Position numbers and translations under genes: made by a program. Shown here in pieces: positions 2,230 to 32,751 of a stretch of DNA of 64,000 nt. The stretch lies in NCBI GenBank assembly GCA_018434355.1, contig JAHDPL010000020.1, positions 1-64,000 on the forward strand, given 5' to 3'. This stretch comes from Sporomusaceae bacterium (GTDB lineage: Bacteria; Bacillota; Negativicutes; UBA1444). Position 1 is the first letter of the stretch, and every line of letters starts with the position of its first letter. The notes beneath the pieces were generated by a model. It was given only the letters and a program-made list of their open reading frames with translations, ran no database searches and was not told the origin of the DNA.

Positions 2230-2261
2230 GCTTTCCTCTTCCCCCTCTTCCCCTTCCCCCC

Positions 2262-6393: not shown

Positions 6394-6411
6394 TTATCTT
6401 TCCCCTCCCTG

Positions 6412-6837: not shown

Positions 6838-6857
6838 AATTTCACCTCTTCATGGAA

Positions 6858-6885: not shown

Positions 6886-6914
6886 CTGTACTAATCTCCG
6901 TTACAGTAAGGAAA

Positions 6915-7919: not shown

Positions 7920-8043
7920 ATTCAGTCCTCCCCTTTTTCTAAAACGGTTTAGATTGTGAAAATACCTATTTTGTTATTTCTCGACACAAGAAAAAACTCC
8001 TGCTAATTTTGTAAAATTCACAGTAATCAATTTGTCGCTAACG

Positions 8044-10964: not shown

Positions 10965-10981
10965 TTGGCATGATTATTGCA
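10965..10981 (+). promoter_or_regulatory. Sigma-54 (-24/-12) promoter of the soluble transducer gene
   Basis: TTGGCATGATTATTGCA matches the RpoN consensus TTGGCAYG-N4-TTGCA at every conserved position, with GG and GC elements at the obligatory spacing. The rest of this 369-base intergenic region (10692-11060) holds only the divergent promoter for the ABC operon and AT-rich sequence. The start site would be near 10993, about 68 bases before the ATG. Confidence 0.8.
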
Positions 10982-11060
10982 TTTAGTATATAGATTAGGT
11001 AATGTTGCGTTGATTGTCTATCCATTTTTGGCAATTTACAATTAGGGAGGAGAAGGATTC

Positions 11061-16443: not shown

Positions 16444-17668
16444 AACACCACGTGGCAACCGCCTGCACATCGCACTGTTTGGTCGCCGCAACGCCGGCAA
16501 ATCGAGCCTGATCAATGCCCTGACCAATCAGTCGCTGGCGATCGTCTCCGACGTTGCCGGAACCACCACTGACCCGGTCTACAAATCGATGGAAATTCTG
16601 CCGCTCGGACCTGTGGTTGTCATCGACACCGCCGGCCTGGATGACGTCGGCGAACTGGGAATGCTGCGCATTGAAAAATCGCTAGAAGTGCTGCGCAAAA
16701 CCGATCTGGTTTTGCTTGTCGTCGATGCAACCATCGGCATCGCCGAGCCGGAGCGCGAACTGGCCGAAAAATGCCGAACGCAGAATATCCCGTTCATCCT
16801 GGTATTCAACAAATCCGATTTGCAAATAACGACGCCGGATGTGCTGGAAAGCATCAAAACCACGCTTGGTGCGGCAGCCGCCGTGGCAGTCAGCGCCGAA
16901 CAGCGACAAGGCATTGGCGAACTGAAAATCGCCATGGTCCGGCACGCGCCGGCCCGCTGGGATACGCAGACCATTGTCGGCGATCTGCTGCAACCCGGCG
17001 ATATTGCCGTGCTGTGCGTACCGATCGATCTGGCCGCGCCGGCTGGCCGACTGATTTTGCCGCAGGTCCAGATGATCCGCGACATTCTCGACCATGACGC
17101 ACTGGCTTACACGGTGAAAGAACGCGAACTGAAAGAGTGCATCGCCAGCCTGAACCGCAAACCGAAAATCGTGATCACCGATTCGCAGGTGTTTCTCAAA
17201 GCCGATGCCGACACGCCGCCGAATGTACTACTCACTTCTTTTTCGATCCTGTTCGCCCGTTACAAGGGAGATCTGGAAACGATGGTACGTGGCGCCAGGG
17301 CGATCGACCGGCTGAAACCGGGCGACAAGGTGCTGATCAGCGAATCCTGCACGCATCACCGGGTGGAAGACGATATCGGCACTGTGAAGATTCCCCGCTG
17401 GCTCAGACAGCACGTCGGCGGTGAGCTGGTCGTCGACCATTCCAGCGGCCTCAGTTTTCCGAAAAATCTCAGCGAATACAAGTTGGTGCTGCATTGCGGC
17501 GCCTGCATGACCAACCGGCGCGAAATGCTGGCCCGCATCGTCGAAGTCCAGCAGGCCGGCGTGCCAATCGTCAATTACGGCGTGGCGATCGCCGCGCTGA
17601 TGGGCATTCTGCGTCGGGCCTTGTCACCGTTCCCTTTGCTGCAGGACATTCTCGACGAGGAAGAATAA
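16436..17668 (+). CDS. hydF: [FeFe]-hydrogenase H-cluster maturation GTPase HydF
   Basis: This 410-residue scaffold GTPase assembles and delivers the 2Fe subcluster of [FeFe]-hydrogenase. The N-terminal G domain has LFGRRNAGKSSLINAL, DVAGTTTDPV, DTAGLDD and NKSD. The C-terminal [4Fe-4S] site is present as Cys305-x-His307 and His353-Cys354-x-x-Cys357, the CxH...HCxxC pattern of HydF. Its partners HydE and HydG are not in this window, although they commonly flank aspA-hydF. Confidence 0.95.
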   Translation: MNETPRGNRLHIALFGRRNAGKSSLINALTNQSLAIVSDVAGTTTDPVYKSMEILPLGPVVVIDTAGLDDVGELGMLRIEKSLEVLRKTDLVLLVVDATIGIAEPERELAEKCRTQNIPFILVFNKSDLQITTPDVLESIKTTLGAAAAVAVSAEQRQGIGELKIAMVRHAPARWDTQTIVGDLLQPGDIAVLCVPIDLAAPAGRLILPQVQMIRDILDHDALAYTVKERELKECIASLNRKPKIVITDSQVFLKADADTPPNVLLTSFSILFARYKGDLETMVRGARAIDRLKPGDKVLISESCTHHRVEDDIGTVKIPRWLRQHVGGELVVDHSSGLSFPKNLSEYKLVLHCGACMTNRREMLARIVEVQQAGVPIVNYGVAIAALMGILRRALSPFPLLQDILDEEE

Positions 17669-17758: not shown

Positions 17759-18940
17759 TTAAGGTTTTACCGTCGTCTTGTAAACCATTTTTCCGTCTTT
17801 CATTTCGATGATAACTGCACTCTTGACCGCATCATGGTTTTCATTCAGCGTGGTCGCGCCGGTAACTGCAGGGAAATTTTTGGTGGCTACGAGGGCTGCT
17901 TGGATTTTGGCAGAATCGGCTGCGCCGGCCCGTTTGATCGCATCAACCAGGACGTAGGCGGCGTCATAACCGAGCACTGCCATCGCGTCCGGCATTACGC
18001 CATATTCTTTTTTATAAGCTTCGACGAATTTTTTCGAGGCAGGGCTGGAATCTTCCGGCGAATAGTGGTTGGTGAAGTAGGTGTTGTTCATGCCGGCTGC
18101 GCTGCCGATTTCAACCAGTTTGGGGGAATCCCAGCCGTCGCCGCCGACGATTGGCATCATCAGGCCCATTTCACGGGCTTGTTTGGCGATCATGCCGACT
18201 TCTTCATAGTAACCAGGCAGATAGATGACTTCCGGATTCATGCCTTTGATCTTGGTCAGGATGGCCTTGAAGTCCTTGTCTTTTTGCAGATAAGCTTCTT
18301 CGCCGGCAATCGTCCCGCCGCCTTTGGTATAAGCTTCCTTGAAGAACTTGGCCAAGCCTTTGCTATAGTCGCTGGAGTTGTCGATCATGACAACCGCTTT
18401 TTTCAGTTTCAGGTCTTTCAGCACGAAGTTCGCGCCGACAGTGCCTTGGAACGGGTCGATAAAGCAAACGCGGAAGGTGTAAGGTTTTGCTTTGCCGGTT
18501 TTTTCATCCACCGTCACTTTGGGGTTGGTCGTCGCTGCAGCAACGAAGGGAATCTTGTTCGCTTCGTTGACTGCCGAACCGGCGATACCGTTGGAGCTGG
18601 TGGTGAAACCTACGACGGCAACCACTTTGTCCTGAGTGATGACTTTGGTCATCGCATTGGCCGATTCGGAAGGCTCGCCTTTGTTGTCCGCCGTCACGGT
18701 GGTGATTTTTTTGCCGAGCACTCCGCCAGCAGCATTGATTTCTTTGAACGCCAGTTTGGTTCCGTTATTGGCGGCGGTACCGAATGAAGCGGTGCCACCG
18801 GTCAGTTCATAGACAACACCGATTTTGATATCCTTGGATTCGGCCGGTTTCGCCGCAGGCGCTCCGCCACCGCAACCGGTCACCGCAAACGCGACAAGAA
18901 CCAATAAGGCCAAGGCAAACATCAAATTTCTCTTTTTCAC
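17759..18940 (-). CDS. Branched-chain amino acid-type ABC binding lipoprotein (LivK family)
   Basis: This 393-residue periplasmic binding protein of the LivK/Peripla_BP_6 family has a lipobox VTGC, then the family start IKIGVVYELTGGTASFG, AFKEINAAGGVLGKKI and VVAVVGFTTSS. It is encoded alone: no LivH, LivM, LivG or LivF gene lies nearby, so it must use a transporter encoded elsewhere or serve sensing. It follows the proline-type dehydrogenase operon in the same orientation but is separated by a terminator and about 280 bases. Ligand unknown; amino acids or betaine-like compounds are plausible. Confidence 0.88.
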   Translation of the reverse strand: MKKRNLMFALALLVLVAFAVTGCGGGAPAAKPAESKDIKIGVVYELTGGTASFGTAANNGTKLAFKEINAAGGVLGKKITTVTADNKGEPSESANAMTKVITQDKVVAVVGFTTSSNGIAGSAVNEANKIPFVAAATTNPKVTVDEKTGKAKPYTFRVCFIDPFQGTVGANFVLKDLKLKKAVVMIDNSSDYSKGLAKFFKEAYTKGGGTIAGEEAYLQKDKDFKAILTKIKGMNPEVIYLPGYYEEVGMIAKQAREMGLMMPIVGGDGWDSPKLVEIGSAAGMNNTYFTNHYSPEDSSPASKKFVEAYKKEYGVMPDAMAVLGYDAAYVLVDAIKRAGAADSAKIQAALVATKNFPAVTGATTLNENHDAVKSAVIIEMKDGKMVYKTTVKP

Positions 18941-19071
18941 AAAAAACCCTCCTCAAATTTTATCCACTACTAGCATAATTGTCTGATCCTCCAATACTCT
19001 GGTTAAGGCCCCCCTTCGCCATTGGTTATTGCCTTTAGTTTGACAAAAAATGCACTCGAGACCCGTAATTG

Positions 19072-19135
19072 AAAAAAGAAGCTTTGGGCAAAATACCCAC
19101 TGGATATTTTACCAAAAGCTTCTTTGCTTTTGCTA
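19072..19135 (-). terminator. Terminator of the proline-type dehydrogenase operon
   Basis: AAAGAAGCTTT and AAAGCTTCTTT close a long stem-loop, followed on the minus strand by six T residues. It lies about 90 bases after the P5C dehydrogenase stop. Apart from this hairpin, the 284-base gap 18941-19224 shows nothing else. Confidence 0.7.
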
Positions 19136-19224
19136 TAATCACAATCATTTGTCTCTTCCAAACGCCCTTGAAGATGATTATAGACCTCAATATATAATTT
19201 TACAAGTGATTTTTGCGAAAAAAG

Positions 19225-20772
19225 TTACATTTTTTCTGCAACAACCTTGGCTTGCATGAATAATAGTAAATAATCGGCCCCGCCAGCCTTGGAATCGGTA
19301 CCCGACATATTGAACCCGCCGAAAGGTTGCACGCCGACCAGCGCGCCGGTGCATTTGCGGTTCAGATACAGGTTGCCGACATGGAAGTCGCGGCGAGCTT
19401 GTTCCAGTTTGGCACGGTTGCGGGAGTACACCGCGCCGGTCAAGCCATACTCGGTGTCATTGGCAATCCGCAGCGCATCGGCAAAATCTTCAGCGCAGGT
19501 AATCGCCACCACCGGGCCAAAAATTTCTTCCTGGGCAATGCGGGACTTCGCCGGCGCATCGGCAAACACCGTCGGCTCGATGAACCAGCCTTTGTCGCCT
19601 GCCGTATTGCCGCCGGCAACCAGCCGCGCTTCGGTTTTGCCGATTTCGATGTATTCGAGGATTTTTTTATAGGCGCTTTCATCGATCACCGGACCCATAT
19701 TGACGCCCAGTTCAGCTGCCGGGCCAACTTTGAGCGCCTTGGTTTTCGCGGCGACTTTGGCTACCACTTCATCATAGACGCTTTTTACGACAATCGCCCG
19801 CGAGCAGGCCGAGCATTTCTGGCCCTGGAAACCAAACGCCGAGGCCACAATGCCGTTGGCGGCTTCTTCCAAATCGGCTTCCTCATCGACAATAATCGCG
19901 TCTTTGCCGCCCATTTCCGCCACAACCCGCTTGATCCAGATCTGCCCCGGCGCCACATCGGCCGCCAGCTTATTGATCCGCAGGCCGACTTCTTTGGAAC
20001 CGGTAAAGTTGATGAACCGCACCTGCGGGTGCGATACCAGCGCGTCGCCGATACTGCCGCCGCTACCGGGCAGATAGTTGATCACGCCAGCCGGCGCACC
20101 GGCTGCTTCGAACAGTTCCATCAGCTTGGCTGCGATCACCGGCGTACTGCTGGCCGGTTTCATGATGACCGTGTTGCCTGCCACCACCGCAGCGGCGACC
20201 ATGCCGGCCAAAATCGCCAGCGGGAAGTTCCAGGGCGGAATGACTACACCAACGCCCAGCGGGATATAAAAGCACTCGTTCTGTTCGCCCGGAACGGAGA
20301 TGACCGGCATGCCGGCCGCGTAGCGAAGCATTTCCCGCGCATAGTATTCCATGAAATCGATTGCCTCGGCTGTATCGGCATCCGCTTCGGCCCAGTTCTT
20401 TCCTGCTTCCTCGACCAGCCAGGCCGAGTATTCGAATTTGCGTCGGCGCAAAATCGCCGCCGCTTTGAACAGCAGGCGGGCCCGCACTTCCGGCGCCACA
20501 TGTTTCCAACTGGCAAACGCGTCTTGCGCCGCTTTGACGGCCTGATCAGCCAGTTCGACATTGGCCCGGGCCACGGTGCCGATGACTTCCGAGAAGCAGG
20601 AGGGATTCACCGAGGTGATGCGGGCTTCGGTATCAATCGCTTTGCCGGCGATCTTCAGCGGATAGTGGCGGCCTTTTTCGGATGCCACCAGTTGCAGCGC
20701 CGCCTCCATGGCCGCTTTGTTCTCTGGGATGCTAAAATTCGTGAACGGTTCGTTTTGGTACGCTGTTTGCAT
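19225..20772 (-). CDS. rocA: Delta-1-pyrroline-5-carboxylate dehydrogenase (RocA/PruA type)
   Basis: This 515-residue NAD-dependent aldehyde dehydrogenase oxidises glutamate semialdehyde/P5C to glutamate. The nucleophile is Cys320 in [16 protein letters not shown], a segment characteristic of RocA-type P5C dehydrogenases. The general-base glutamate lies in [22 protein letters not shown] precedes the chosen ATG; an upstream in-frame ATG at 20790 lacks a site. It is the last gene of the operon, 35 bases after the DAO-family subunit, completing proline-to-glutamate conversion. Confidence 0.92.
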
Positions 20773-20807
20773 AAGGTGAGCCCTCCTCAATATTTCATCG
20801 TTCTTGA

Positions 20808-21956
20808 TTAAACTACTGACGGTTCGACAAATAGGTCGCCGCGGGCAAATCGACCGGCATCGAGCAGTTCGACAGGCAGGGCGGTTTTGAGCCCCAGCAG
20901 CTTTTCGGCAACGATCTGGCCGGTGATCGGCGCGATCATGAAGCCATGTCCGCTGAATCCCGCCGCGACATGAAACCCTTCCACATCGCCCGCCGGCCCA
21001 AGAATCGGCTGACGATCCGGCGACATGTCATAAAGCCCGGCCCATTGGCGCACCACATTCAGTCCGGCCAGCGGCGGCAAAATCTCAATCAGTCGGCGGG
21101 CCATCTCGCCGAGGAACTGCCAGCTGGATTCGGTGTTGAAGCTCTCCGGCTCGTCGGGATGGCCAATGCCCATGATAAAGCTGCCATGCGGACTTTGTTG
21201 GCAATACAGGTTGTGATGGAAACTCATCACCATCGAATCCTGCATCGGCTCGACCGGCTCGGTCACCAGGATTTCATGTCGTTCGGGGTAAATCGGCAAT
21301 TCGACGCCGACCATCCGGCCCAGCTGTTTGGAATAGCCGCCGGCAGCGACCACTACCCGTGGGGTACTGATAGTACCCCACCGGGTCTTGACCCCGGTGA
21401 TCCGGCAGCACTCCGCCTCGATTCCAGTCACTTCGCTATTCGTGCGAATCTCCACGCCATGCCGCTCGGCCGCTTTTGCATAGGCGGCGGTCGCCTTGAA
21501 CGGGTTGCAGTGGCCGTCTTTGGCGCAGAAGGTTGCGCCCAGCAGCCCGGCCGTATTCAAATGCGGCACGATTTCCTTTGCTTCTGCCGGCGTTACCCAG
21601 CGCGACGGAATTCCCAGCGAATTTTGCAACTGCAGGTTCTTTTTGAACTGGGCCGCCATCTTTTCGGTATAAGCCAGCAGCAAGTAGCCACCCTGTTTCA
21701 GTTCGATATCGATATCAACATCCAGCAGCTCCGGCAGCTGTTCCAGCATCCGGGTGCTTTCCCGCGACAACAGGCAATTGGTTTCGGTTCCCCATTGCAT
21801 CCGCATGCCGGCGCCGCAGCGACCGGTGGCCCCGCTGGCCAGATAGTCGCGTTCCAAAAGCACCACCTTGCCGGCGCCGAGCCGGGCCAGGTTGTAGGCC
21901 GTGGCGCAGCCGACTATGCCGCCGCCGATGACTACTACATCCGCCGTATCATTCAT
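20808..21956 (-). CDS. FAD-dependent amino acid dehydrogenase, DAO family (Pdh/HcnC-like catalytic subunit)
   Basis: This 382-residue flavoprotein has an N-terminal Rossmann motif [21 protein letters not shown] and the DAO-family end [21 protein letters not shown]. It resembles the catalytic beta subunit of archaeal-type multisubunit L-proline dehydrogenase, HcnC and sarcosine oxidase beta. Electrons from the amino acid would pass to the Fe-S and second FAD subunits encoded upstream. The ATG follows GGAGGTG and overlaps the upstream stop by eight bases. Because P5C dehydrogenase is next, L-proline is the most likely substrate; D-hydroxyproline or sarcosine dehydrogenase are alternatives. Confidence 0.85.
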
Positions 21957-22236
21957 GCCGTTCACCTCCGGCCAGCGCACCCAAGCTAATCGCCGCCACC
22001 GGCTGCCGGAATGTCGGCAGCGAAATCTCGGCTAACGGTTTGCCGGTCGCCTTGGCCAGTTCCTGCGCCACCAGCGGCATACAGGTCCGGCCCTGGCAGG
22101 GTCCCATGCCGCAGCGGCAGCTGCGTTTGATTTCTTCGGTGCTCAAGTTGCCGTCGGCAATACTCTGGCGGATTTCCGACAGTTTGATATCTTCGCACCG
22201 ACAAATGATAATATCGTCTTCCAGTTGTTCACTCAT
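21949..22236 (-). CDS. BFD-like [2Fe-2S]-binding subunit
   Basis: This 95-residue protein carries the bacterioferritin-associated-ferredoxin-like motif IICRCEDI...CRCGMGPCQGRTC, giving four cysteines for a [2Fe-2S] cluster. In HcnB/Pdh-alpha and sarcosine oxidase alpha proteins this domain is fused to the NAD/FAD subunit; here it is a separate gene. It overlaps the ferredoxin gene by four bases and the catalytic gene by eight, which suggests fixed subunit stoichiometry. Confidence 0.88.
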   Translation of the reverse strand: MSEQLEDDIIICRCEDIKLSEIRQSIADGNLSTEEIKRSCRCGMGPCQGRTCMPLVAQELAKATGKPLAEISLPTFRQPVAAISLGALAGGERHE

Positions 22237-22727
22237 CCCGCCACTTCCTTTCGCTGCCGGATGTTGCGCACATCCATCGCAATCGCCTTGTCAACCGCCA
22301 GCCACAGAACCGTCGTCCGGTTGGCCTGTTGCTGCACCCGCTGCACCGTTGCCGCGCCAACAACTTTTCCTGCCCGGTCGATCGCCGCGACGACTTCGCC
22401 GCTGACCGGCAGCGGGGCAAATTCATAAGGGATTTTCAGCAACGCCTCGCCATCTGCAAACGAGTAGTCGACGACAAAAATGGCCAGACCGGGGCAACGC
22501 GTGATGCAGAGGCCGCAGCCATTGCATTTCGTTTCATCAAACACCGGTCGTTCGCTGATGCTGCCCGGCATGACAATCGCGCCGCGGGGACAAGCTTCGG
22601 CGCAGGGATTGCAGGGGATCTGCTGAAAACACTCGATCACCGCCACCGGGCCTTGCCGTAGTCGGCTCTCTGCCGGCAATACTGCCTGTAAATCCTCAGT
22701 TGACGGGATTCCATCCACTGCCAGCAT
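22233..22727 (-). CDS. [4Fe-4S] ferredoxin-type electron transfer subunit
   Basis: This 164-residue protein has two cysteine clusters: CNPCAEACPRGAI (residues about 45-57) and CNGCGLCITRCPGLAI. It is a two-cluster ferredoxin domain followed by a ~75-residue beta-rich tail of unknown fold. Starting at the ATG after GGGGAGG, one base past the upstream stop, removes a spurious extension. It would connect the FAD subunits of the complex to ferredoxin or a membrane acceptor. Comparable ferredoxin-like proteins accompany anaerobic HcnABC/Pdh clusters. Confidence 0.85.
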   Translation of the reverse strand: MLAVDGIPSTEDLQAVLPAESRLRQGPVAVIECFQQIPCNPCAEACPRGAIVMPGSISERPVFDETKCNGCGLCITRCPGLAIFVVDYSFADGEALLKIPYEFAPLPVSGEVVAAIDRAGKVVGAATVQRVQQQANRTTVLWLAVDKAIAMDVRNIRQRKEVAG

Positions 22728-22728
22728 G

Positions 22729-23817
22729 TTAAACCGCCTCCCCGAGCATGACTTTGCATAATCCATTGCAGACTTTTGCGCTGACCGGCGCGCTGCGCAG
22801 CGCATTCAGCTGCGATTTGGCCTCGTGATAAAGCGCGGCAAAGTTTTCACTCTGATAACGCAGGGCAAACGCCGCCGCCAGTCCTGCCAGTTTCCCTTCG
22901 ACCATGGCCGCCGAAGCTTCTTCGACGCCGGCCACATCGCCGGCCACGTAAATATTGTGGTGCGTTGTCAGCAGATCGGCGTTGCGCCAGGGAACATAGC
23001 CGCCGAGTTCCGGCACAAACTCCATTTTGCAGCCGGCCTGCCACAGCAGTTCGGTCAGCGGACTCAGGCCAACAGCCAGACATAGCCCGTCTACCGCGAA
23101 ATCCTGTTCCGTGCCGGGGATCTGGTTCCATTTTTCATCCAGCCGGCAAACGGTAACGCCGCTCAGCCGGTCGGTCCCATAGGCTTTTTTGATCGTATGG
23201 CCGGTAAGGATCGGCACGCCGCAGCGCTGGATTTTTGACGCATGTACCCAGTAAGCACCGATTTTCGGCGCCGCTTCGATAATCGCCGCCACTTCGACTC
23301 CCGCCTGCAACAGTTGGTAGGCAACAATCACGCCAATATTGCCTGCGCCGACCATCAACACCCGATCAGCCGGCTTGACGCCATAGACATTCATCAGGGT
23401 CTGCACAGCGCCGGCGCCGTAAATACCGGGCAGGTCGTTGTTGGGAAACGCCAACGTCTTTTCCGACGCGCCGGTCGCCACGATCAGTTTCTTCGGTTTG
23501 ACCAGGCAAAACGAGTTGCCCTGCTTGACCGACAACACGCCGTCCGGGTAATAACCGAGGGCTGTGGCATTCTTCCACACCGTGACATTGGATAACTGCA
23601 CCAACTGATCCATCAGTTTATGGGCGATTTCAAAGCCGCGTTCGCCAGCGTATTCTTCGCGCGAACCGAAAAACTTGTGCGTCTGTTTGATCAGCTGCCC
23701 ACCCAACTCGTTGGCTCGTTCCAGCAGCAATACCTGCGCCCCCATTTCGGCGGCCTGAATCGCTGCCATCAGTCCGGCCGGACCGGCGCCGACAATCGCG
23801 ATATCCGTCTGCCTCAT
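22729..23817 (-). CDS. NAD(P)/FAD-dependent oxidoreductase subunit (HcnB/Pdh-alpha-like)
   Basis: This 362-residue pyridine-nucleotide-disulfide-type flavoprotein has DIAIVGAGPAGLMAAIQAAEMG at the N-terminus (FAD), ATGASEKTLAFPNNDLPG, a second Rossmann motif VLMVGAGNIGVIVAYQLLQ and the FAD-closing VAGDVAGVEEASAAMVEG. It matches the large electron-transfer subunit of amino acid dehydrogenases such as hydrogen cyanide synthase HcnB, with the C-terminal BFD domain split off as its own gene. It overlaps the 2Fe-2S subunit gene by four bases. Confidence 0.9.
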   Translation of the reverse strand: MRQTDIAIVGAGPAGLMAAIQAAEMGAQVLLLERANELGGQLIKQTHKFFGSREEYAGERGFEIAHKLMDQLVQLSNVTVWKNATALGYYPDGVLSVKQGNSFCLVKPKKLIVATGASEKTLAFPNNDLPGIYGAGAVQTLMNVYGVKPADRVLMVGAGNIGVIVAYQLLQAGVEVAAIIEAAPKIGAYWVHASKIQRCGVPILTGHTIKKAYGTDRLSGVTVCRLDEKWNQIPGTEQDFAVDGLCLAVGLSPLTELLWQAGCKMEFVPELGGYVPWRNADLLTTHHNIYVAGDVAGVEEASAAMVEGKLAGLAAAFALRYQSENFAALYHEAKSQLNALRSAPVSAKVCNGLCKVMLGEAV

Positions 23818-24119
23818 ACCAGTTTTCCCTTCCCTTCCTGGGTTTCCACCTGCATCCCGGCCCGTAGCGGTTCGACGCAAATCCGCACGTTGGGCACTCC
23901 ATCCACCGTCATCAGACAGGAAGAACAGTTGCCGATGGCGCAAAACAAGCCGCGCGGCCTGTGAAACCGACTACTGTGATGCAAAGACCTCACACCCGCC
24001 GCGTGCAGCGCCGCTGCGATCGGTTCGCCGGCCAGCCCGGTCACTTCTTTGCCATCAAAAACAAACTTCACGGTTTCCCGCTGCGGAAACTCCAGAATCG
24101 GATGATTCGCAATACGCAC
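23814..24119 (-). CDS. [2Fe-2S] ferredoxin-like subunit (HcnA/SoxA-N-like)
   Basis: This 101-residue protein resembles the N-terminal ferredoxin domain of sarcosine oxidase alpha and HcnA: FDGKEVTGLAGEPIAAALHA, then RPRGLFCAIGNCSSCLMTVDG and VRICVEPLRAG, giving the CxxxxCxxC...C cluster ligands. I start it at GTG 24119 after GGAGGTG. A longer in-frame reading to 24215 would include the sigma-54 promoter and cannot be the true start. It is the first gene of the operon. Confidence 0.85.
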   Translation of the reverse strand: MRIANHPILEFPQRETVKFVFDGKEVTGLAGEPIAAALHAAGVRSLHHSSRFHRPRGLFCAIGNCSSCLMTVDGVPNVRICVEPLRAGMQVETQEGKGKLV

Positions 24120-24166
24120 TGATCTTTCACCTCCGTTTGAAACCTCAACTATGAAAAGGTATATAT

Positions 24167-24183
24167 TGCACAAACCATGCCAA
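24167..24183 (-). promoter_or_regulatory. Sigma-54 promoter of the proline-type dehydrogenase operon
   Basis: Read on the minus strand, TTGGCATGGTTTGTGCA carries GG and GC with the required ten intervening bases; only the first base of TTGCA differs from the RpoN consensus. It lies 48 bases before the GTG start and immediately after the terminator of the activator gene. Confidence 0.75.
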
Positions 24184-24189
24184 GTGAAC

Positions 24190-24223
24190 AAAAAAATCGG
24201 CAATGCCTGTAGCAAAGCCGATT
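24190..24223 (-). terminator. Terminator of the sigma-54 activator gene
   Basis: AATCGGC and GCCGATT pair around a 15-base loop and are followed on the minus strand by a run of T residues. It separates the activator transcript from the sigma-54-driven operon. Confidence 0.7.
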
Positions 24224-24262
24224 GCGCGATTTTTACCGCATTGGTTTCGTGGTGCAGAAATG

Positions 24263-25771
24263 TCAGCTTTTCGACACTTTCGTCGATTCTTCGACATCGA
24301 TCTGCAGGTTTTTCATTTTGTAATATAAAGTACTGCGGGGAATCCCCAGCTTTTTCGCTGCCAACAGCTTGTTAAAGTTCACTTCCGCCAGCACTCTGCC
24401 GATCAACTCGCGTTCCATCGCTTCGGTCGTATCAGTCAGCGACTGCCCCGTTGCCGATCGCGACTGCGGTTGTGTAGCTGCGCCAGCCACTCCGGCGGCG
24501 GATTCGGCGGCGAGGTTCGTCGGCAAATTGGCCGGCGTCAACACTTCGCCGTCGCACAAAATCACCATTCGCTCCAGCGCATTGTATAGTTCGCGCACGT
24601 TTCCCGGCCAGTCATAGTTGAGCAAGGCCGCCATCGCCGCGGGGTCCAGCCGGCGAATCTGTTTGCCATGCAAGTGGCTGAAATGTTGAATCCCCCGGTG
24701 CACAAGCTCCGGTATGTCCTCGCGACGTTCCCGCAACGAGGGTAATGGAATCGTCACCACATTCAGCCGGTAATACAAGTCTTCGCGGAATTCCCCCCGC
24801 GCAATCATCGCTTCCAGGTCGCGATGCGTCGCCGCAATCACCCGGATATCGACATGGACCGACTTGCCGCCGACCCGGTGAAAGCGTTGCTCCTGCAGCA
24901 CCCGCAGCAGTTTTACCTGCATTTCTTTGGGCATTTCGCCGATTTCGTCCAAAAACAACGTGCCGGCATGCGCCTGCTCCAAATAACCCAGTTTGCCCTT
25001 CTTGTCCGCGCCGGTGAAAGATCCCGCGTCATAACCGAACAATTCGCTTTCAAACAGACTGGCCGGAATCGCGCCGCAATTGATCGCCACGAACTGGCCG
25101 CGCCGACCGCTGGCCCGGTGGATGGCGCTGGCGAACAGTTCCTTGCCGCTGCCGCTCTCGCCGCGCAACATGACCGAAACATTGGTGGCCGCAACCCGGC
25201 GGGCCACGCGAACCGCCTCCATTACCAACGGACTGTGGCCGTAAATCGCCGTAAATTCGTCCGCCGTGGCCTGGATCTTGTCAATTTCTTCGCGCAGACT
25301 ACGCACTTCATTGCCCGCTTCCGACAGCTGCTGATTCAGATTGACCACTTCAGTGATATCCCGCTCGGCGGAAACGCCGCCGACAATCTTGCCTTCCAGC
25401 CGGACCGGTTGGGCATTGATCAAGACATGCGTGCCGGGACAAGGTTTGTGATACGCTTCGCGCACCAGCAAGCCCTGCGTCATCGCCTGGGTGACCATCA
25501 GATTGGAAAAAAATTTGCCGATCGGCTGCCCGATGATTTCGGTCGACGCAATGCCATAAAGCAGCTCGGCCCGCCGGTTCCAGCCAGTCACCCGGTTTTC
25601 GGCATCGATCACGCAGACGGCTTCTTCCAGCACATCGAGCAGCTCCTGCCAACGCGCCGCCTGCAGCAAATTCTCCGCCAACAGTTCCTGGCAAAGGCGC
25701 TTCAATTCTTCCGCTGAACTGGTATTCATTCGATTCTGCAACAATTCCCAGGCCTGATTCCCCATTCTCAA
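24263..25771 (-). CDS. Sigma-54-dependent transcriptional activator with PAS domain
   Basis: This 502-residue enhancer-binding protein has a PAS sensory domain (about residues 35-150), a coiled linker, an AAA+ ATPase and a C-terminal Fis-type helix-turn-helix. Walker A is GESGSGKE. The sigma-54 contact loop reads GSFTGA instead of GAFTGA, a substitution also seen in RocR-type activators. Walker B is GTLFLDEIGEMP, and the HTH region reads AAKKLGIPRSTLYYKMKNL. There is no receiver domain, so it probably responds to a small ligand. The adjacent sigma-54 promoter makes the dehydrogenase operon its evident target. Confidence 0.92.
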   Translation of the reverse strand: MRMGNQAWELLQNRMNTSSAEELKRLCQELLAENLLQAARWQELLDVLEEAVCVIDAENRVTGWNRRAELLYGIASTEIIGQPIGKFFSNLMVTQAMTQGLLVREAYHKPCPGTHVLINAQPVRLEGKIVGGVSAERDITEVVNLNQQLSEAGNEVRSLREEIDKIQATADEFTAIYGHSPLVMEAVRVARRVAATNVSVMLRGESGSGKELFASAIHRASGRRGQFVAINCGAIPASLFESELFGYDAGSFTGADKKGKLGYLEQAHAGTLFLDEIGEMPKEMQVKLLRVLQEQRFHRVGGKSVHVDIRVIAATHRDLEAMIARGEFREDLYYRLNVVTIPLPSLRERREDIPELVHRGIQHFSHLHGKQIRRLDPAAMAALLNYDWPGNVRELYNALERMVILCDGEVLTPANLPTNLAAESAAGVAGAATQPQSRSATGQSLTDTTEAMERELIGRVLAEVNFNKLLAAKKLGIPRSTLYYKMKNLQIDVEESTKVSKS

Positions 25772-25976: not shown

Positions 25977-26669
25977 TTAGTACCAATCAAACGCACTTGT
26001 CAACAACCTTGAAAAGTCAGCAATAATGATTCGTCCTCTGACGATGTCTTCAATAATTCCTTCTTGTTTCAATTTTGCCATCGCATGATTCAGGGTAACT
26101 CGATGAACTCCGAGTAATCCAGCTAATTCCATTTGCGACAGATTGCTTTTACAAACAACTCTACCTGTTGAAGCTTGATCTGGCTCTCGTTCAACCATAT
26201 ATAGGAGCATTTTGCATAATCTTTTCTTTAATGGCATCAGATCACTGGCCTGAATCGAAAGAAATCTTGCTTTGCTGGCCAAACCTTCAATCATGTTAAG
26301 CATCAAATTGGGATGTCTCAGTAAAATTTCCTGTTCGATGCAGTTACGGGAAAACGAATAGACTACAGACTCTTCCATCGCAACAAATATGCCTTCCATC
26401 GGCTTCCTGTCCCAAAACGGCGTCTCACCGAACAGATTATTCTTTTCAAGATACCAGACAATTTTCTCCGTTCCGTCAGACAATATTTTTGACAAACGAA
26501 TTTTACCGGACTGAAGATAATAAAGATGGTCAATCACCATGCCGTTGCCGATTATCGTCGCATTTTTTTTGTAAGTTTGTTTCTTACCCAAATGAATCAC
26601 AGACTCCCACATGGAATTTTTCGCATTGATCCATGGCGAAGAATAGTCACGCACTATCGGCTTCGACAC
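25977..26669 (-). CDS. Crp/Fnr-family transcriptional regulator
   Basis: This 230-residue regulator has an N-terminal cyclic-nucleotide-binding-like beta barrel (about residues 20-140, with YYLQSGKIRLSKILSDGTEK and LFGETPFWD) and a C-terminal winged helix (about 150-220, with MELAGLLGVHRVTLNHAMAKL as recognition region). It lacks the Fnr cysteine cluster, and the cAMP-contacting RxS motif is not apparent, so the effector differs from cAMP. CprK-like regulators of Desulfitobacterium are a possible relation. It is divergent from the gcvH-lpd-grx genes, whose likely regulator it is. Confidence 0.88.
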   Translation of the reverse strand: MSKPIVRDYSSPWINAKNSMWESVIHLGKKQTYKKNATIIGNGMVIDHLYYLQSGKIRLSKILSDGTEKIVWYLEKNNLFGETPFWDRKPMEGIFVAMEESVVYSFSRNCIEQEILLRHPNLMLNMIEGLASKARFLSIQASDLMPLKKRLCKMLLYMVEREPDQASTGRVVCKSNLSQMELAGLLGVHRVTLNHAMAKLKQEGIIEDIVRGRIIIADFSRLLTSAFDWY

Positions 26670-26844: not shown

Positions 26845-27258
26845 ATGGCGCAAACCAAGAAGCGTATTGACGAAATCGATATACCCGATAGCATTTTATA
26901 TTATGCAGAACACACCTGGGTCGCCCGTGATGGAGAGTATTATCGAATCGGCATCACCGACTTCGCCCAAGACCAACTCGGCGAAATCATTTTCATTGAA
27001 TTGCCGGAAGTAGGAGCTGGTTATCGCAAAGGGAAAACGTTTGGTTGCGCGGAATCGACCAAATCAGTATCCAGTCTGTATATGCCGATTAGTGGCGAAA
27101 TCGTACAAGTCCATACCACAGTATCTGACAACCCGGAACTTGTCAATCAAGACGCTTATGGCGAGGGCTGGATGATTCTTATTAAACCGACCAATCCAGA
27201 TGATTTGCAAGAATTGCTGTCAGCCGAAAGTTACCGTCGTCAACTATCGTCCGTCTAA
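26845..27258 (+). CDS. GcvH-like lipoyl carrier protein
   Basis: This 137-residue protein aligns over its length with glycine cleavage H protein: HTWVARDGEYYRIGITDFAQDQ (split here at the family start), LGEIIFIELPEVGA, the lipoyl-lysine hairpin AESTKSVSSLYMPISGEI with Lys73, and the NPELVNQDAYGEGWM segment. No gcvT, gcvP or lipoate ligase gene is present, so it is probably a lipoyl carrier for another reaction. It precedes a dihydrolipoamide dehydrogenase gene by 15 bases. AAAGGATG precedes the ATG. Either a moonlighting glycine-cleavage H protein or a dedicated carrier is possible. Confidence 0.88.
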   Translation: MAQTKKRIDEIDIPDSILYYAEHTWVARDGEYYRIGITDFAQDQLGEIIFIELPEVGAGYRKGKTFGCAESTKSVSSLYMPISGEIVQVHTTVSDNPELVNQDAYGEGWMILIKPTNPDDLQELLSAESYRRQLSSV

Positions 27259-27273
27259 AGGAAGGTGTATGCT

Positions 27274-28656
27274 ATGAAAAATTTTGATGTCGCCATCCTT
27301 GGTGGTGGACCGGGAGGCTATGTAGCTGCCGTGCGGTGTAGTCAACTCGGGCAATCCGTCGCTTTGATAGAAAAGGAAGCACTCGGGGGGACCTGTGTCA
27401 ACTGGGGATGCATTCCAACCAAGTCTATGCTTAAAAATGCCGAAGTCATACACATGCTGAATTGCGGCAAAAATTTCGGATTTTCTTGCGACAACAGGGT
27501 GGTGGACTATGGGGCTGCGCACTCACGCAGTCGACAGATAGCAAAACGCCAAAGCAAGCGGATTGAACTGCTGCTGAAAAACCACAATATCCAGATAATT
27601 CAAGGTCAGGCTCACTTTATCAATACCAAAGTTTTGCAAATTCAACCATCGGGGGAACAGATCGCTGCAAACAGCATCATTCTTGCAACGGGCTCGAAAC
27701 CTCGGAGCATTCCCGGCATCGCATTTGACGGGGAACGGATAATAACCGCTCGCGATGCATTGCAACTGAACCAAGCCCCAACCAGCGTCATTATCGTTGG
27801 CGCCGGTCCGATTGGCATGGAATTTGCCAGTTTATGGAGCCGATTCGGTTCGACCGTTACGGTAGTCGAAATGATGCCTAACGTGCTTCCAATGGAGGAC
27901 GGGGAAATTTCACGCGAAGCTGGAGTATTTTTCCGCAACGCAGACATTGCCGTTAAAACGGCCACCAGCGTATCTGCGGTGCAAGTCAAGGAAAATGGAG
28001 TCGAAGTTGTCGTTAGCTGTGATGGCCTGGATGAAGTATTGCATGCCGAAAAAATTTTGATCGCTACCGGATTTACTCCTAACACTAGCGAGTTGGGCCT
28101 TGATGTGCCCGGCGTAAAAACCACTCGCTGCGTCATTGATATCGATGACCAAATGCGAACAAACATCCCCGGGATTTATGCAATCGGAGACATCACCGGA
28201 AAACTCGGATTGGCTCACGTTGCATCCGCCCAGGGATTGATCGCTGCCGAAACCATAACCGGTCATGCCCCCCAGTCGTTGAATTACAAAAACATCCCCC
28301 GTTGCACCTTCAGCGCAATCGAAGTCGCTTCTGCCGGTCTCTCCCAGGACGAGGCCGAAAAAAGCTTCCCGTCTGTACTCGTGCAAAAAAGCCCTTTTGC
28401 ACCAAACGGAAAAGCGCTCGCCCTCAATGAAAATATTGGATTTGTCAAAATCGTAGCAGATGCTGACAGTAGAAAATTATTAGGAATTCATATGATTGGA
28501 CCTCATGTTACCGAACTGATATCAGGTCCTGCGGCATTCCTTTCATTGGGTCTAACGATTGATCAATTACGCCACCTCGTATATCCGCATCCTACGCTAT
28601 CCGAGGCTTTTATGGAGGGCATCCATGCAATATCGGGGCATGGCGTCCATCTTTAA
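27274..28656 (+). CDS. lpdA: Dihydrolipoamide dehydrogenase
   Basis: This 460-residue flavoprotein disulfide reductase reoxidises dihydrolipoyl groups with NAD. It has VAILGGGPGGYVAAVRCSQLG (FAD), the redox pair Cys41/Cys46 in GGTCVNWGCIPTK, a second Rossmann motif VIIVGAGPIGMEFASLW, and the C-terminal catalytic His-Glu region HPTLSEAFMEG. The Trp inside the CxxxxC loop replaces the usual Val. The ATG after AAAGGAAGG is preferred over an upstream GTG. It follows the GcvH-like gene by 15 bases and is most likely its oxidase. Confidence 0.93.
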   Translation: MKNFDVAILGGGPGGYVAAVRCSQLGQSVALIEKEALGGTCVNWGCIPTKSMLKNAEVIHMLNCGKNFGFSCDNRVVDYGAAHSRSRQIAKRQSKRIELLLKNHNIQIIQGQAHFINTKVLQIQPSGEQIAANSIILATGSKPRSIPGIAFDGERIITARDALQLNQAPTSVIIVGAGPIGMEFASLWSRFGSTVTVVEMMPNVLPMEDGEISREAGVFFRNADIAVKTATSVSAVQVKENGVEVVVSCDGLDEVLHAEKILIATGFTPNTSELGLDVPGVKTTRCVIDIDDQMRTNIPGIYAIGDITGKLGLAHVASAQGLIAAETITGHAPQSLNYKNIPRCTFSAIEVASAGLSQDEAEKSFPSVLVQKSPFAPNGKALALNENIGFVKIVADADSRKLLGIHMIGPHVTELISGPAAFLSLGLTIDQLRHLVYPHPTLSEAFMEGIHAISGHGVHL

Positions 28657-28685
28657 TCCATTTTATCATTAAAGGAGCTGATTTT

Positions 28686-29435
28686 GTGAGTTACACGATC
28701 TATACTCTTCCCGGCTGCACCCGCTGCAAAATCCTGAAACAATGTATGTGCGAGCAAGGACTCGCTTATACCGAAAAAGATACGCAAGCAGAAGGGAAAG
28801 AAGAGTTTCAAAAATTCTACGGTCAGAACCGCAAATCCATTATTCGAGGATCAGTTGGGATAGAATTTCCCATCCTTGCCAGCTCCGAGGGAATCTGGCA
28901 AGGCTTGCCCAAAACGCTGGCCCATGTACTGTTTGACAAAAAACTTGATGGATTCGTCAGCTTAGGCACCCTCCACAAAGAATGGGTGGATGGGTTGCAC
29001 ATCTCCGGCGGCAATCCGGCGTATGCTGACGAATTTCTGCAACTACTTCACTATATCAAGAACAACAATATGCAATTGCAAATAGATACTGATGGCCGTC
29101 ATCCTGAAATTTTGCATCGGGTTCTGTCAAACAACCTTGCTTCTGTTCTCATATTAAACGCGCAAGAAGCAGACTCGCCCGATATCCGTAAAAGTCTTGA
29201 GCTTGCTGTAAAATTTCCGGTCTACAAGATTCGCACAGTTGTCTCGCCTGAAATCACGCCTGCTGAAGTCGGCGCCATCGCCCGCATGATAGGAGAAATT
29301 ACCGGCAACATGAAAACTCCCTACCTTCTATTTGCGGACGCCAAAGACGAAACACCAAACTTATTGACTCATCGTTCAGCGGCGCGCAAACACCTCGTCC
29401 TCGCCGACATTGCGACCGAGACAGTAACTGTGTAA
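28686..29435 (+). CDS. Glutaredoxin fused to radical-SAM-like (NrdG-like) region
   Basis: This 249-residue protein begins at GTG after AAAGGAG. Residues 1-80 look like a glutaredoxin, with a CTRC active site (Cys11, Cys14) in TIYTLPGCTRCKILKQC. Residues about 95-230 resemble the barrel of anaerobic ribonucleotide reductase/pyruvate formate-lyase activating enzymes (SGGNP at 107-111, LQIDTDGRHPEILHRVL, then YKIRTVVSPEITPAEVG), but the CxxxCxxC [4Fe-4S] motif of radical SAM enzymes is absent. It may be a redox protein that reuses the fold without SAM chemistry. It lies 29 bases after lpdA, so it probably exchanges electrons with the lipoyl pair. Function unknown. Confidence 0.7.
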   Translation: MSYTIYTLPGCTRCKILKQCMCEQGLAYTEKDTQAEGKEEFQKFYGQNRKSIIRGSVGIEFPILASSEGIWQGLPKTLAHVLFDKKLDGFVSLGTLHKEWVDGLHISGGNPAYADEFLQLLHYIKNNNMQLQIDTDGRHPEILHRVLSNNLASVLILNAQEADSPDIRKSLELAVKFPVYKIRTVVSPEITPAEVGAIARMIGEITGNMKTPYLLFADAKDETPNLLTHRSAARKHLVLADIATETVTV

Positions 29436-29469
29436 GCGCAGTACCTAAACACTGCCGTACAATCTTAGC

Positions 29470-29501
29470 AAAGCTCCTCAGTTATAAACCGAGGAGCTTT
29501 T
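29470..29501. terminator. Bidirectional terminator between grx fusion and DASS gene
   Basis: AAAGCTCCTC and GAGGAGCTTT form a perfect 10-bp stem with an 11-base loop and T/A tails on both sides, between the convergent genes. Confidence 0.85.
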
Positions 29502-29533
29502 CCTGTTTGCTTTGCAACAGCTGTCCGCTGCAG

Positions 29534-30976
29534 CTATTTTATCAATCCAATCAATTTCCAGTATGGGTAGGCTACAACAAGCATCACTACACCACTGACA
29601 GCCATTCGTATTGCAACAACTTTAACCAACGCTTTCATGGAAATATAGCCATAGGAATAGACAAATAACAACCCGGCGAACTCGTACGGCAATATATACT
29701 GATCCAACCCAAACAGATAGGAATACACTATTGGCAATGGATTAAAGCCAGCCTTTATGCATACTTCAGCAATAGGAGCGGTAAAACTCGCCATTGCGGC
29801 TAAAGGTGTTAGCAAAAAATTAATCGCAACACCAAAAAACCATGCAGCCATCATTGTATACATTGCGCCACTTCCCGCCAGGAAGGGAAACAATACATTT
29901 GCCAGCCACTTTCCCGATCCTGATGCGGTCGCCACAATACCAATCGACATGCAGCCAGCCACAAAAAATATCATTTTGTAGTTTAACTTTCCAAGTTGGG
30001 TATCATCCATCAGATCAACGCCAGGCAGGAAACAGATGCCCCCCAAGATAACGAAAATCCAGCCCGGGTCAATATTATGGATGGAATCCGTAAGTAGTGC
30101 AATAATTGTGACAACCAACACCACACAGACTTTTTTCTCCGCCGATGAGAGCGGGCCCAGTTCTTTATATTTTTGCACGATTACGTCCTTGGCTTCCAAC
30201 TCTGTTTCCGGTTTTAAAGCCCAGATGACGATAAGCAACCCGACCAAAGTCAAAGACAAAGCGATAAACAAATTATGATATGCATACTCCGTCCAGGAAA
30301 CTGGTGCCGCAGTTATTTTGCTCACGATATTCACCATCATAGGGATGCCGCCATCACCAGTGAAGAAACCAATTCTAGTTGTAGCAACCCCCAAAAAAGC
30401 GGCAAGCATTACAGCTGAGGCGCCACGTGATTGTGGTTCCATTTTGAATACCTGGCAAATCCCCATAGCGATTGGAACAATAATCGCCAATTTCCCCATA
30501 ATACTGGGAACAAACGGATTGATAACGATACCGGTTATAGTTAACCCAATGAGAGCGCCATTAAAAGTCCCTCCGCTTTTAATGATGGTCAGATAGGCAA
30601 TACGCTTGGCAATACCTGATGTCATCAACACGTTGGCGATCAGCATGCCCCCCACCGTAATCCACACTACGCTGGTTGTCCATGGAGCTAATGCTGCCTG
30701 CGGTTTTGCAACATTCGCCACAATATAGAATATCGGTAGTAATATAGCAATAAGCGCACTAGGCAAAATATCAGTCGCCATAGCAGTAACAGCCCACACG
30801 GTAACGGCCAAAAAACGTTTAACCGTGACTGTCATTCCGGCATATTCCGGTAGCAGCAAAATTACTAAAGGCAACACCAGCGACAGTGCCCAAAACAACA
30901 CGTTCGGTTTCTTTTCTTCCGGTTTTTTTGTTTGAGGACTTGGGCCGACTGGGCTGGTTTCCTTTACGTTAGTCAT
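29534..30976 (-). CDS. DASS (SLC13/CitT-family) anion transporter
   Basis: This 480-residue membrane protein has about 12 hydrophobic segments and belongs to the divalent anion:sodium symporter family. Features include VTVWAVTAMATDILPSALIA and a GVAINFLLTPLAAMASFTAP region in the second half. A soluble 25-residue charged N-terminus precedes helix 1. The ATG after GGGAGGG is preferred over one five codons upstream. It sits 107 bases downstream of the arylsulfotransferase-like gene, same strand. Dicarboxylates, sulfate or organosulfur anions are possible substrates. Confidence 0.88.
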   Translation of the reverse strand: MTNVKETSPVGPSPQTKKPEEKKPNVLFWALSLVLPLVILLLPEYAGMTVTVKRFLAVTVWAVTAMATDILPSALIAILLPIFYIVANVAKPQAALAPWTTSVVWITVGGMLIANVLMTSGIAKRIAYLTIIKSGGTFNGALIGLTITGIVINPFVPSIMGKLAIIVPIAMGICQVFKMEPQSRGASAVMLAAFLGVATTRIGFFTGDGGIPMMVNIVSKITAAPVSWTEYAYHNLFIALSLTLVGLLIVIWALKPETELEAKDVIVQKYKELGPLSSAEKKVCVVLVVTIIALLTDSIHNIDPGWIFVILGGICFLPGVDLMDDTQLGKLNYKMIFFVAGCMSIGIVATASGSGKWLANVLFPFLAGSGAMYTMMAAWFFGVAINFLLTPLAAMASFTAPIAEVCIKAGFNPLPIVYSYLFGLDQYILPYEFAGLLFVYSYGYISMKALVKVVAIRMAVSGVVMLVVAYPYWKLIGLIK

Positions 30977-31083
30977 AGCAGTCCCTCCCAAAAACTTTTG
31001 TAGGCCCCAAATTCACTTTTTATTAGAAACTTCACTTAACAAGGACCGGGGACGAGGGCTGAATAACCCTCGCCCCTTTGTCG

Positions 31084-32520
31084 TTATTTTGCTTCTTCGT
31101 CATCCGCAATGCAAAGCGCGGTCGTTCCCTGATAAGGCATCACGCCTTCCACTTTAGACTCTTTGCTACGTACAATTGAGGCCCCCGGCACGCGGAAAGT
31201 CTTAACATTTATCGGTTGAATAGCAGTTTCTACAGGGGTGGGGATTTGCGGAACCCAATCATAAGGTACGCGATAGGCTCGGTAAACCATATTCATTTTC
31301 ATATGCGCACCCCAGTAAGGGCTGATAAACTCCCAGACAATTTCATGCTGCGGAGTTACTTCAATCAAGCGTCCACCTGATCCTTCAGTGATTAATGTAT
31401 TTCCATTTTCCAAGCGTTGAGCGCCACTAATGAACGGACTGTAGAAACGATACGAATCCGCCGGCATTACCAATCCCGCTTCTGCAGGAGTATACTGCCA
31501 AACGATTTTCAATGTTGTCGGATCAAACTCCAATACCCTAGAGTAGTCCCGCCAGACATTTTTCGCACCCTTAGGGGCCATCGGATTGGGCAAGCCATAT
31601 CCGGCCCAGCCGCCGTTGTCAAACACAAGAATATTTCCTTCGCCGGCCAACCCGCGCGGAATCATATGGGCATGATGCATGCCGACCAACCAACCTAATT
31701 TTTTCAATTCAGGACTCGTGTCATATTCAGGGCCAATTTGCCATACAATTTTACCGGTTTTCTTGGAAATAATCGCCATGATGTTAGCCTCACGGCTATC
31801 CCAAATAATATTATCCGGATGAAAGCGTTCATCTCCAGCGTCATACCATTTGTTCGGACCCAATACAGACATTGAGTTGATATGCATCCAGTCGCCCATT
31901 CCGCCGCCGGCAGCCCGCATATTCGGGTCGCGACAGAGAATATTCTTTGCAGCTTCACTGAAGTTCAATTCGTCAAAATGCTCACTGCATATCCATTCCC
32001 AGACAATTTCCCCCGCCCAGTTTACTTCGATAATGCTGTCATCCAGCAGGCGTTTATCTGACACTTTGGGGTTTGTCAAATTTTTGTGACACAACAAAAG
32101 TGTATTTCCTTCGGTTACTTTGGGATCTAATCCCGGAGCATAATATCCTACCGGATTGCCTTCCCGCTGGTAATCATGGTGTACTCTAGCCATCCATTGC
32201 GGTTTCTCGCCCGGATCTTCAATGTATTCGTATTGATCAAACTTCCATACCACATTGCCGTCCCAGTCGACCTGAACCAAATCGGTCTGGTCCTGCATTC
32301 CATAAGCATTGTTGCGCAAACCCAGATGCCCCATCACATACCCGCCCGGAAGAATCTTATTGGGGAATCCATGCAACCCTTTCCAAAAGTTCACTTCAGT
32401 CCCGTTCATGTCAATGAGCATGGCTCCCTGCTCCCTGGCTTGGAAGATTGTATAACCGCTACTGCACTTTTCCGGCTTAAATACGGTTACTCCTGTGGGA
32501 TACACTGATGGATACGACAT
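31084..32520 (-). CDS. Arylsulfotransferase (ASST)-family protein without signal peptide
   Basis: This 478-residue protein belongs to the ASST family (PF05935), a six-bladed propeller that in enterobacteria transfers sulfate between phenolic compounds in the periplasm through a histidine. The catalytic-region motifs GDWMHINSM and VGMHHAHMIPRG are present, with repeated IVWEW/IVWQY blade strands. Unlike periplasmic AssT it starts directly with mature sequence and has no signal peptide or DsbL-type partner, so it is probably cytoplasmic. ATG chosen seven bases after GAGGAGT. Likely co-transcribed with the DASS gene. Confidence 0.82.
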   Translation of the reverse strand: MSYPSVYPTGVTVFKPEKCSSGYTIFQAREQGAMLIDMNGTEVNFWKGLHGFPNKILPGGYVMGHLGLRNNAYGMQDQTDLVQVDWDGNVVWKFDQYEYIEDPGEKPQWMARVHHDYQREGNPVGYYAPGLDPKVTEGNTLLLCHKNLTNPKVSDKRLLDDSIIEVNWAGEIVWEWICSEHFDELNFSEAAKNILCRDPNMRAAGGGMGDWMHINSMSVLGPNKWYDAGDERFHPDNIIWDSREANIMAIISKKTGKIVWQIGPEYDTSPELKKLGWLVGMHHAHMIPRGLAGEGNILVFDNGGWAGYGLPNPMAPKGAKNVWRDYSRVLEFDPTTLKIVWQYTPAEAGLVMPADSYRFYSPFISGAQRLENGNTLITEGSGGRLIEVTPQHEIVWEFISPYWGAHMKMNMVYRAYRVPYDWVPQIPTPVETAIQPINVKTFRVPGASIVRSKESKVEGVMPYQGTTALCIADDEEAK

Positions 32521-32751
32521 TTTTTTCACTCCTCTTTTTGTTTTCCTGGCGCGGCTTTGTTTTTGTGATTCACCTCTTGAGAATACTTTTCCGGTCCTTT
32601 AGTTCTTCTTTTCACAAACCCTCTTCTTATTAAAGGTTACTTCATCATTGCCCATAAGCGCAGTAACAATTATTACACTTTTTCAAAATATTTTACAAAA
32701 GTCCGATGATAGATCCTCACTTTCGAAAATTCAAGCTTTTTCTTTTTCATA

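Follow-up and report, generated by a model that had tools for sequence, protein, structure and literature searches.

We describe a protein, encoded in the window (the whole 64,000-nucleotide stretch of a Sporomusaceae genome that was analysed), in which a glutaredoxin is fused to a half barrel homologous to the core of the radical SAM activases. It belongs to a conserved family, for which the name GrxB was coined here, and its genes are accompanied at nearly every locus by the gene of a leaderless arylsulfotransferase (ASST). GrxB is probably the redox partner of this ASST and, judged from sequence, could well act as a dithiol reductase dedicated to a cytoplasmic pathway that converts organosulfates to sulfite. 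The parts of this system are of known kinds, and their combination and the proposed route appear to be new; we found no description of an ASST-glutaredoxin-lipoyl gene cluster or of the fusion family in the open-licence literature.

A glutaredoxin fused to an activase-like half barrel

The preliminary description of this DNA had placed a CTRC glutaredoxin site at residues 11 to 14 and an SGGNP segment at residues 107 to 111 of the encoded protein. Both positions were exact, the open reading frame was real (Table 1), and the second segment forms the end of a longer stretch, HKEWVDG..SGGNP, at residues 97 to 111. The downstream region had also been likened to NrdG/PflA, and this resemblance proved to be above chance. 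The NCBIfam NrdG2 model (TIGR02495) matched residues 98 to 156 of the window protein with an E value of 1.2e-8 and matched all 12 of the family members scanned, with a best E value of 7.9e-17. Glutaredoxin models (YruB and Uxx-star) matched residues 4 to 39 of the window protein and likewise found 12/12 scanned members. When the matches of the window protein were checked against the curated cut-offs, all of them fell below (34.5 of 131 bits for NrdG2 and 16 of 29.5 bits for PF04055), and GrxB is therefore, on these scores, a relative of the named families and a member of none. Alignment of the GrxB family to an intact NrdG2-like protein (from locus L004) with hhalign gave an E value of 2.5e-12 over 140 columns, starting past the cluster-binding part.

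The AlphaFold2 model of GrxB (mean pLDDT of 89.4, pTM of 0.86) exhibited a glutaredoxin fold at residues 1 to 84 and six strands alternating with helices at residues 100 to 242, and a partial TIM barrel was thus seen past residue 90, where the preliminary description had expected one. The top match of this model in VIA-align was a pyruvate-formate-lyase-activating-enzyme domain, 3can (Z of 13.3, rmsd of 2.9, 140 residues, model residues 98 to 244), followed lower down by NifB (Z of 10.6) and the complete PFL-AE 3cb8 (Z of 10.3 over 148 residues). The first half of the model matched NrdH redoxins with Z of 10 to 11 (10.8 for NrdH 1h75). With Foldseek alone, the matches were mostly glutaredoxins and GSTs, none with an E value below 0.001, and the activase match came from VIA-align. 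Taken together, the profile comparisons and the model indicate that the GrxB barrel is a partial TIM barrel homologous to the radical SAM activase core, with strand 1 missing. Since the hhalign alignment began past the cluster-binding part and the fold matches covered both halves, the glutaredoxin occupies the place of the first beta-alpha unit and cysteine loop of an activase.

Compared with the NrdG2 and PFL activases (TIGR02495, TIGR02493), GrxB is homologous over residues 98 to 242, with the same fold and common DG..SGG.P and DT.G signatures, but it lacks both the CxxxCxxC motif and the glutamate of GGE and has a glutaredoxin for the first beta-alpha unit. Compared with the NrdH and YruB glutaredoxins, residues 1 to 84 have the same fold and a CxxC dithiol site, but in GrxB this domain is fused to a barrel and does not reach the cut-offs of those families.

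Loss of the cluster motif and conservation of the dithiol site

No CxxxCxxC motif was found in any of 18 GrxB members or in a six-frame translation of positions 28501 to 29600. Its absence from the window protein, reported in the preliminary description, was thereby confirmed and found to be a property of the family. Local decay of a formerly intact activase gene was rejected, the motif being missing in all relatives too, and GrxB is a conserved family and not a decayed gene. The GGE SAM-binding motif was replaced by GGN, GGD, SGN, RGN, HGN or QGD, with the glutamate in none of the aligned members. Homologues also allowed cysteine conservation to be assessed: the CxxC pair was invariant (18/18), its variants CTRC and CVRC being of the dithiol type, and C11 and C14 were the only conserved cysteines, with six members (L013, L015, L017, L020, L093 and L094) having no other cysteine at all.

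These observations bear on whether GrxB retains an Fe-S cluster, either a glutaredoxin-type [2Fe-2S] cluster or a displaced radical SAM cluster. Certain glutaredoxins bind clusters and the activase fold is retained in GrxB, but a protein family with two conserved cysteines in a dithiol site and with GGE lost is highly improbable as a cluster carrier. An unusual cluster on the glutaredoxin cysteines, which the preliminary description had offered as one of two interpretations, is unsupported and was rejected on cysteine conservation. The other interpretation, in which a retired activase fold has been reused to bind a partner or substrate in dithiol chemistry, has good support from the homology, the loss of strand 1 and the cluster loop, the altered GGE, the invariant CxxC and the lipoyl, reductase and ASST neighbors; the partners themselves, the arylsulfotransferase and the link to sulfite reduction had no place in that description.

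Other conserved positions included H97 and E99-W100-x-D102-G103, which precede strand 2 and were kept in nearly all members, and the segment FYxANRK.IFRG.GVEFP in the glutaredoxin part. The thioredoxin fold with its N-terminal CxxC is present, and the GVEFP (cis-Pro) segment is conserved across the relatives by sequence; GrxB is probably a dithiol reductase. The barrel is probably a former activase that has lost its radical chemistry. For protein evolution it is a clear example of how the barrel of a radical SAM activase shed its cluster half, acquired a glutaredoxin there and was retained under selection.

Relatives were 45 to 53% identical to the window protein, which is the shortest member, about 30 residues under the others through deletions in barrel loops. 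Named records that carry GrxB included Desulforamulus aeronauticus, Desulfotomaculum sp., Peptococcaceae CEB3, Clostridiaceae BRH_c20a and a Desulfohalobiaceae MAG, among others. A phage or plasmid origin of the gene was rejected, as no match was found in the phage or plasmid collection.

The gene cluster around GrxB

Table 1. Features of the GrxB locus in the window
Feature	Position	Strand	Evidence or remarks
Crp/Fnr-type regulator	25977..26669	-	PF00027, PF13545; divergent from the GcvH-Lpd-GrxB operon
GcvH-like lipoyl carrier	26845..27258	+	PF01597, E 4.9e-40; lipoyl-lysine K73 invariant in 16/16 non-redundant copies
Dihydrolipoyl dehydrogenase (Lpd)	27265..28656	+	TIGR01350, 499.5 bits, over cut-off; redox Cys44/Cys49 in 12/12
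GrxB, glutaredoxin fused to cluster-less NrdG2/PflA-type half barrel	28686..29435	+	GTG start, 249 aa
Glutaredoxin domain of GrxB, residues 1-84, NrdH/YruB-like	28686..28937	+	AF2 model, VIA matches, GlrX_YruB
CTRC redox site of GrxB, residues 11-14	28716..28727	+	C11 and C14 invariant (18/18)
(beta-alpha)5-beta half barrel of GrxB, residues 98-242	28977..29411	+	Without strand 1 and CxxxCxxC loop
DASS-family anion symporter	29534..30991	-	PF00939, E 1.7e-35
Leaderless arylsulfotransferase (ASST)	31084..32529	-	PF05935, E 1.2e-24

Synteny was compared across 19 GrxB loci. An ASST of the same family lay within about 10 kb of GrxB in 18 of them, and the remaining locus, L090, had a canonical AssT instead. 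This ASST was the constant partner of GrxB and, at 66 to 79% identity to the window ASST, was conserved more than GrxB itself. A GcvH-like gene was present at 17/19 loci, Lpd at 13/19 (missing from six), a Crp/Fnr-type regulator at 15/19 and LipB together with LipA at 6/19. Most loci also encoded a transporter, either of the DASS family (9/19) or an aromatic-acid-like MFS or a TRAP transporter, and the DASS symporter is the probable importer of a (carboxylated) organic sulfate. No glycyl radical enzyme gene was recognised at the GrxB loci.

At L014, GcvH and Lpd were absent and a thioredoxin reductase was present (TIGR01292, 345 bits, over cut-off). Its occurrence in their place speaks for recharging of the barrel protein by a dithiol reductase. 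The same locus carries a second AssT, canonical but leaderless (630 aa), at positions 6352 to 8244 between the ASST and the thioredoxin reductase, and a similar AssT at positions 3545 to 5400 of L090 looks broken.

A role for GcvH and Lpd in glycine cleavage was rejected because the P-protein was not at the window locus; a GDC-P gene was found in the window's genome (G000) on another contig, C50, and was absent from G382, a MAG in which absence is weak evidence. The lipoyl genes could also be read as the targets of GrxB, which would then aid lipoylation of the GcvH-like protein, by maturing LipA or supplying it with sulfur, and take no part in sulfate-ester chemistry. We consider this very unlikely: LipB and LipA at six loci and the frequency of GcvH fit it, but 13/19 loci are without LipA/LipB, L014 and L020 have no GcvH, and the partner that stays constant is the ASST.

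The arylsulfotransferase partner

The window ASST scored 87.5 bits against PF05935 (gathering score of 24.2), and the model matched 13/13 members. A single-sequence search found no solved relative in the PDB. The equivalents of E. coli AssT His356, Arg374 and His436 were H216, R246 and H286, which were invariant in 25/25 members; the E. coli motifs NWAHVN, SSRHQ and TQHTAW aligned with DWMHIN, DSREAN and MHHAHM. These residues were mapped by motif, partly by eye, through the canonical AssT of L014 (AssT2) and 3elq (the 4p04 sequence carries Asn at His436), and the equivalent of His252 (H117/H118) was assigned with less certainty. We accordingly predict that this family, like other members of PF05935 such as E. 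coli AssT and Desulfitobacterium DhAST, transfers sulfuryl groups from aryl sulfates. It differs from those PAPS-independent enzymes in being leaderless and distant, in carrying an invariant tail cysteine and in having a reducing rather than an oxidising thiol partner. Most members begin directly with M-x-Y-P-S-V-Y-P, without an N-terminal leader, and the ASST should therefore be cytoplasmic. The single tail cysteine, Cys473, was invariant (25/25) in a C-terminal tail that is otherwise variable. The AlphaFold2 model of the ASST had a pLDDT of 57, too low for a fold search or for placing Cys473 relative to H286.

According to the passages searched in a review of ASSTs (PMC13426309), in which no mention of a thiol acceptor was seen, catalysis runs via a sulfuryl-histidine, and periplasmic E. 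coli AssT is served by a dedicated thiol-disulfide pair, DsbL/DsbI. By analogy, GrxB, the lipoyl carrier and Lpd could be the reducing counterpart of that pair, a housekeeping reductase that keeps or repairs Cys473 while the ASST carries out ordinary transsulfation of alcohols or phenols. The precedent of dedicated partners, the invariance of Cys473 and the near-obligate GrxB-ASST pairing all fit such a role. However, a chain of NADH, Lpd, lipoyl carrier and glutaredoxin, with its own LipB/LipA at six loci, seems heavy for the upkeep of one cysteine in the cytoplasm of an anaerobe, and the genomes with dsrA and without sat and aprA (see below) would be left unexplained. We therefore regard a housekeeping role as unlikely.

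Co-occurrence with sulfite respiration

The distribution of GrxB was surveyed in 380 Negativicutes genomes and 113 genomes of the Desulfotomaculum-type (Desulforamulus) class. In the Negativicutes, full-length GrxB was found in three genomes (G000, G008 and G090), the identical three that carry the ASST, and a fourth, G130, gave a weak match to the barrel part only. The Desulfotomaculum-type class had GrxB in 9/113 genomes, the ASST in 10/113 and both in nine, an overlap with a chance of about 1.7e-12 by a hypergeometric calculation that ignores phylogeny. One genome, G456, had the ASST and no GrxB.

All 12 GrxB genomes of the two surveyed classes carried dsrA. By the same type of calculation, again ignoring phylogeny, the presence of all three Negativicutes among the 15 dsrA-positive genomes of 380 gave p of about 5e-5, and that of all nine Desulfotomaculum-type genomes among the 75 dsrA-positive of 113 gave p of about 0.02. 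In G383, a fragmented MAG whose aprA is cut, GrxB was present and dsrA undetected. The dsrA, dsrB and dsrC genes were contiguous in G000 (contig C49, positions 1654 to 4272, locus L097), and the window lies on contig C46. G000, G008, G090 and G381 had dsrA over the cut-off, no aprA over the cut-off and no sat, and because of this combination they are predicted to reduce sulfite and not sulfate. Desulfotomaculum-type GrxB genomes had sat wherever it was tested and aprA wherever that was tested, and for these bacteria the GrxB route is therefore dispensable. An anaerobic sulfite reductase gene, asrC, was over the cut-off in 4/12 genomes, including G006, which has no GrxB cluster. As 12 of the 15 dsrA-positive Negativicutes lacked the GrxB system, other sources of sulfite must exist, and the system is an accessory source at best.

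The thiol relay might instead reduce some other substrate, such as a disulfide, a thiosulfonate or the DsrC trisulfide, with the ASST supplying or removing sulfuryl groups elsewhere in the pathway. The chemistry of glutaredoxin, lipoyl carrier and Lpd is generic, and the link to dsrA is genome-wide and not one of a single operon, both of which would suit such a function, but the near-perfect pairing and adjacency of GrxB and ASST indicate a direct functional link, and we judge another substrate to be improbable.

A proposed route from organic sulfates to sulfite

In bacteria that respire sulfite, the near-obligate pairing of an ASST with a dithiol system fed by NADH suggests, as the simplest function, that a sulfuryl group is passed to a thiol and sulfite is released; the product of the GrxB-ASST system may well be sulfite. 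From what was observed directly (the barrel homology, the loss of the cluster motif, the conserved redox and catalytic residues, the synteny, the co-occurrence of GrxB with ASST and dsrA and the absence of sat and aprA from four genomes), we infer the substrate, every step of the chemistry, the sequence in which the thiols act and the use of the barrel for docking. The full scheme is put forward tentatively as reductive desulfation, a new pathway of energy metabolism in which a cytoplasmic ASST and a glutaredoxin/lipoyl dithiol relay would provide dissimilatory sulfite reductase directly with sulfite and spend no ATP on activation, with the barrel as redox scaffold.

An organic sulfate ester, probably carboxylated or aromatic, would be imported by the DASS, MFS or TRAP transporter, and its sulfuryl group would be transferred onto H286 of the ASST with release of the alcohol or phenol. 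The sulfuryl group would then pass to a thiol rather than to another alcohol, most likely the ASST's own Cys473 or else one on GrxB or on the lipoyl carrier, and an S-sulfonate (R-S-SO3-) would form. Cleavage of the S-sulfonate by the CTRC dithiol of GrxB would yield sulfite and oxidised GrxB, which would be recharged by dihydrolipoyl-GcvH, itself reduced by Lpd and NADH (by thioredoxin reductase at L014). DsrAB would take the sulfite as respiratory electron acceptor, making ATP sulfurylase and APS reductase unnecessary. The former activase barrel would most likely be a docking part that joins the glutaredoxin to the ASST, the lipoyl carrier or both.

At two loci, L089 (positions 10979 to 14228) and L094 (9472 to 12720), etfB-etfA was found with genes for a GlcD-like dehydrogenase and for a MutS-like protein. 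The first two hint that the desulfated product may be a 2-hydroxy acid in those strains.

The thiol chemistry of this scheme has precedents. PAPS reductase forms a Cys-S-sulfonate that is resolved by thioredoxin or glutaredoxin, and the PAPS and APS reductases resemble the proposed route in that the sulfuryl group is placed on a (C-terminal) cysteine and a dithiol frees sulfite. The donor in the GrxB pathway, in contrast, would be an organic sulfate acting via the ASST, and the proteins are unrelated. S-sulfocysteine is converted to cysteine and sulfite by E. coli NrdH and Grx1, and the sulfite goes on to sulfite reductase (PMC3528435). In Bilophila, the isethionate sulfite-lyase IslA acts on an organosulfur compound and supplies sulfite for respiration (PMC6386719). 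The GrxB pathway would serve the same end, but it would reduce an O-sulfate through thiols, whereas IslA cleaves a C-S bond by glycyl radical chemistry.

Sulfatases are already known to make sulfate available from organic sulfates, among them sulfated phenols, sugars and hydroxy acids. If the proposed route is correct, the sulfuryl group would stay activated and go straight to sulfite, sparing the ATP of sulfate activation, and bacteria unable to reduce sulfate could breathe sulfate esters. It would also account for dsrAB in some Negativicutes and Clostridia without sat and aprA and would represent a further source of sulfide from organic matter. One GrxB carrier, D. aeronauticus, is a named cultured sulfate reducer.

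Other genes in the window and at GrxB loci

The minus-strand region at positions 19225 to 25771 of the window has the look of a gene cluster for the catabolism of an amino acid (proline or hydroxyproline). It encodes a P5C dehydrogenase (19225 to 20790), a SoxB-like oxidase (20808 to 21980), a sarcosine-oxidase-alpha-like protein, a small 2Fe-2S protein and a PrdR-like sigma-54 regulator. A PII-type protein adjoining an ammonium transporter is encoded at positions 1852 to 2229 (plus strand), and in Desulforamulus (L012, positions 18561 to 20130) a NifH-like and two PII-like genes, identified by reading the sequence, follow closely after the GrxB cluster; the PII-type genes near GrxB clusters are probably chance neighbors. 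Positions 16436 to 17668 of the window (plus strand) encode HydF, the [FeFe]-hydrogenase maturation GTPase (573.7 bits, over cut-off).
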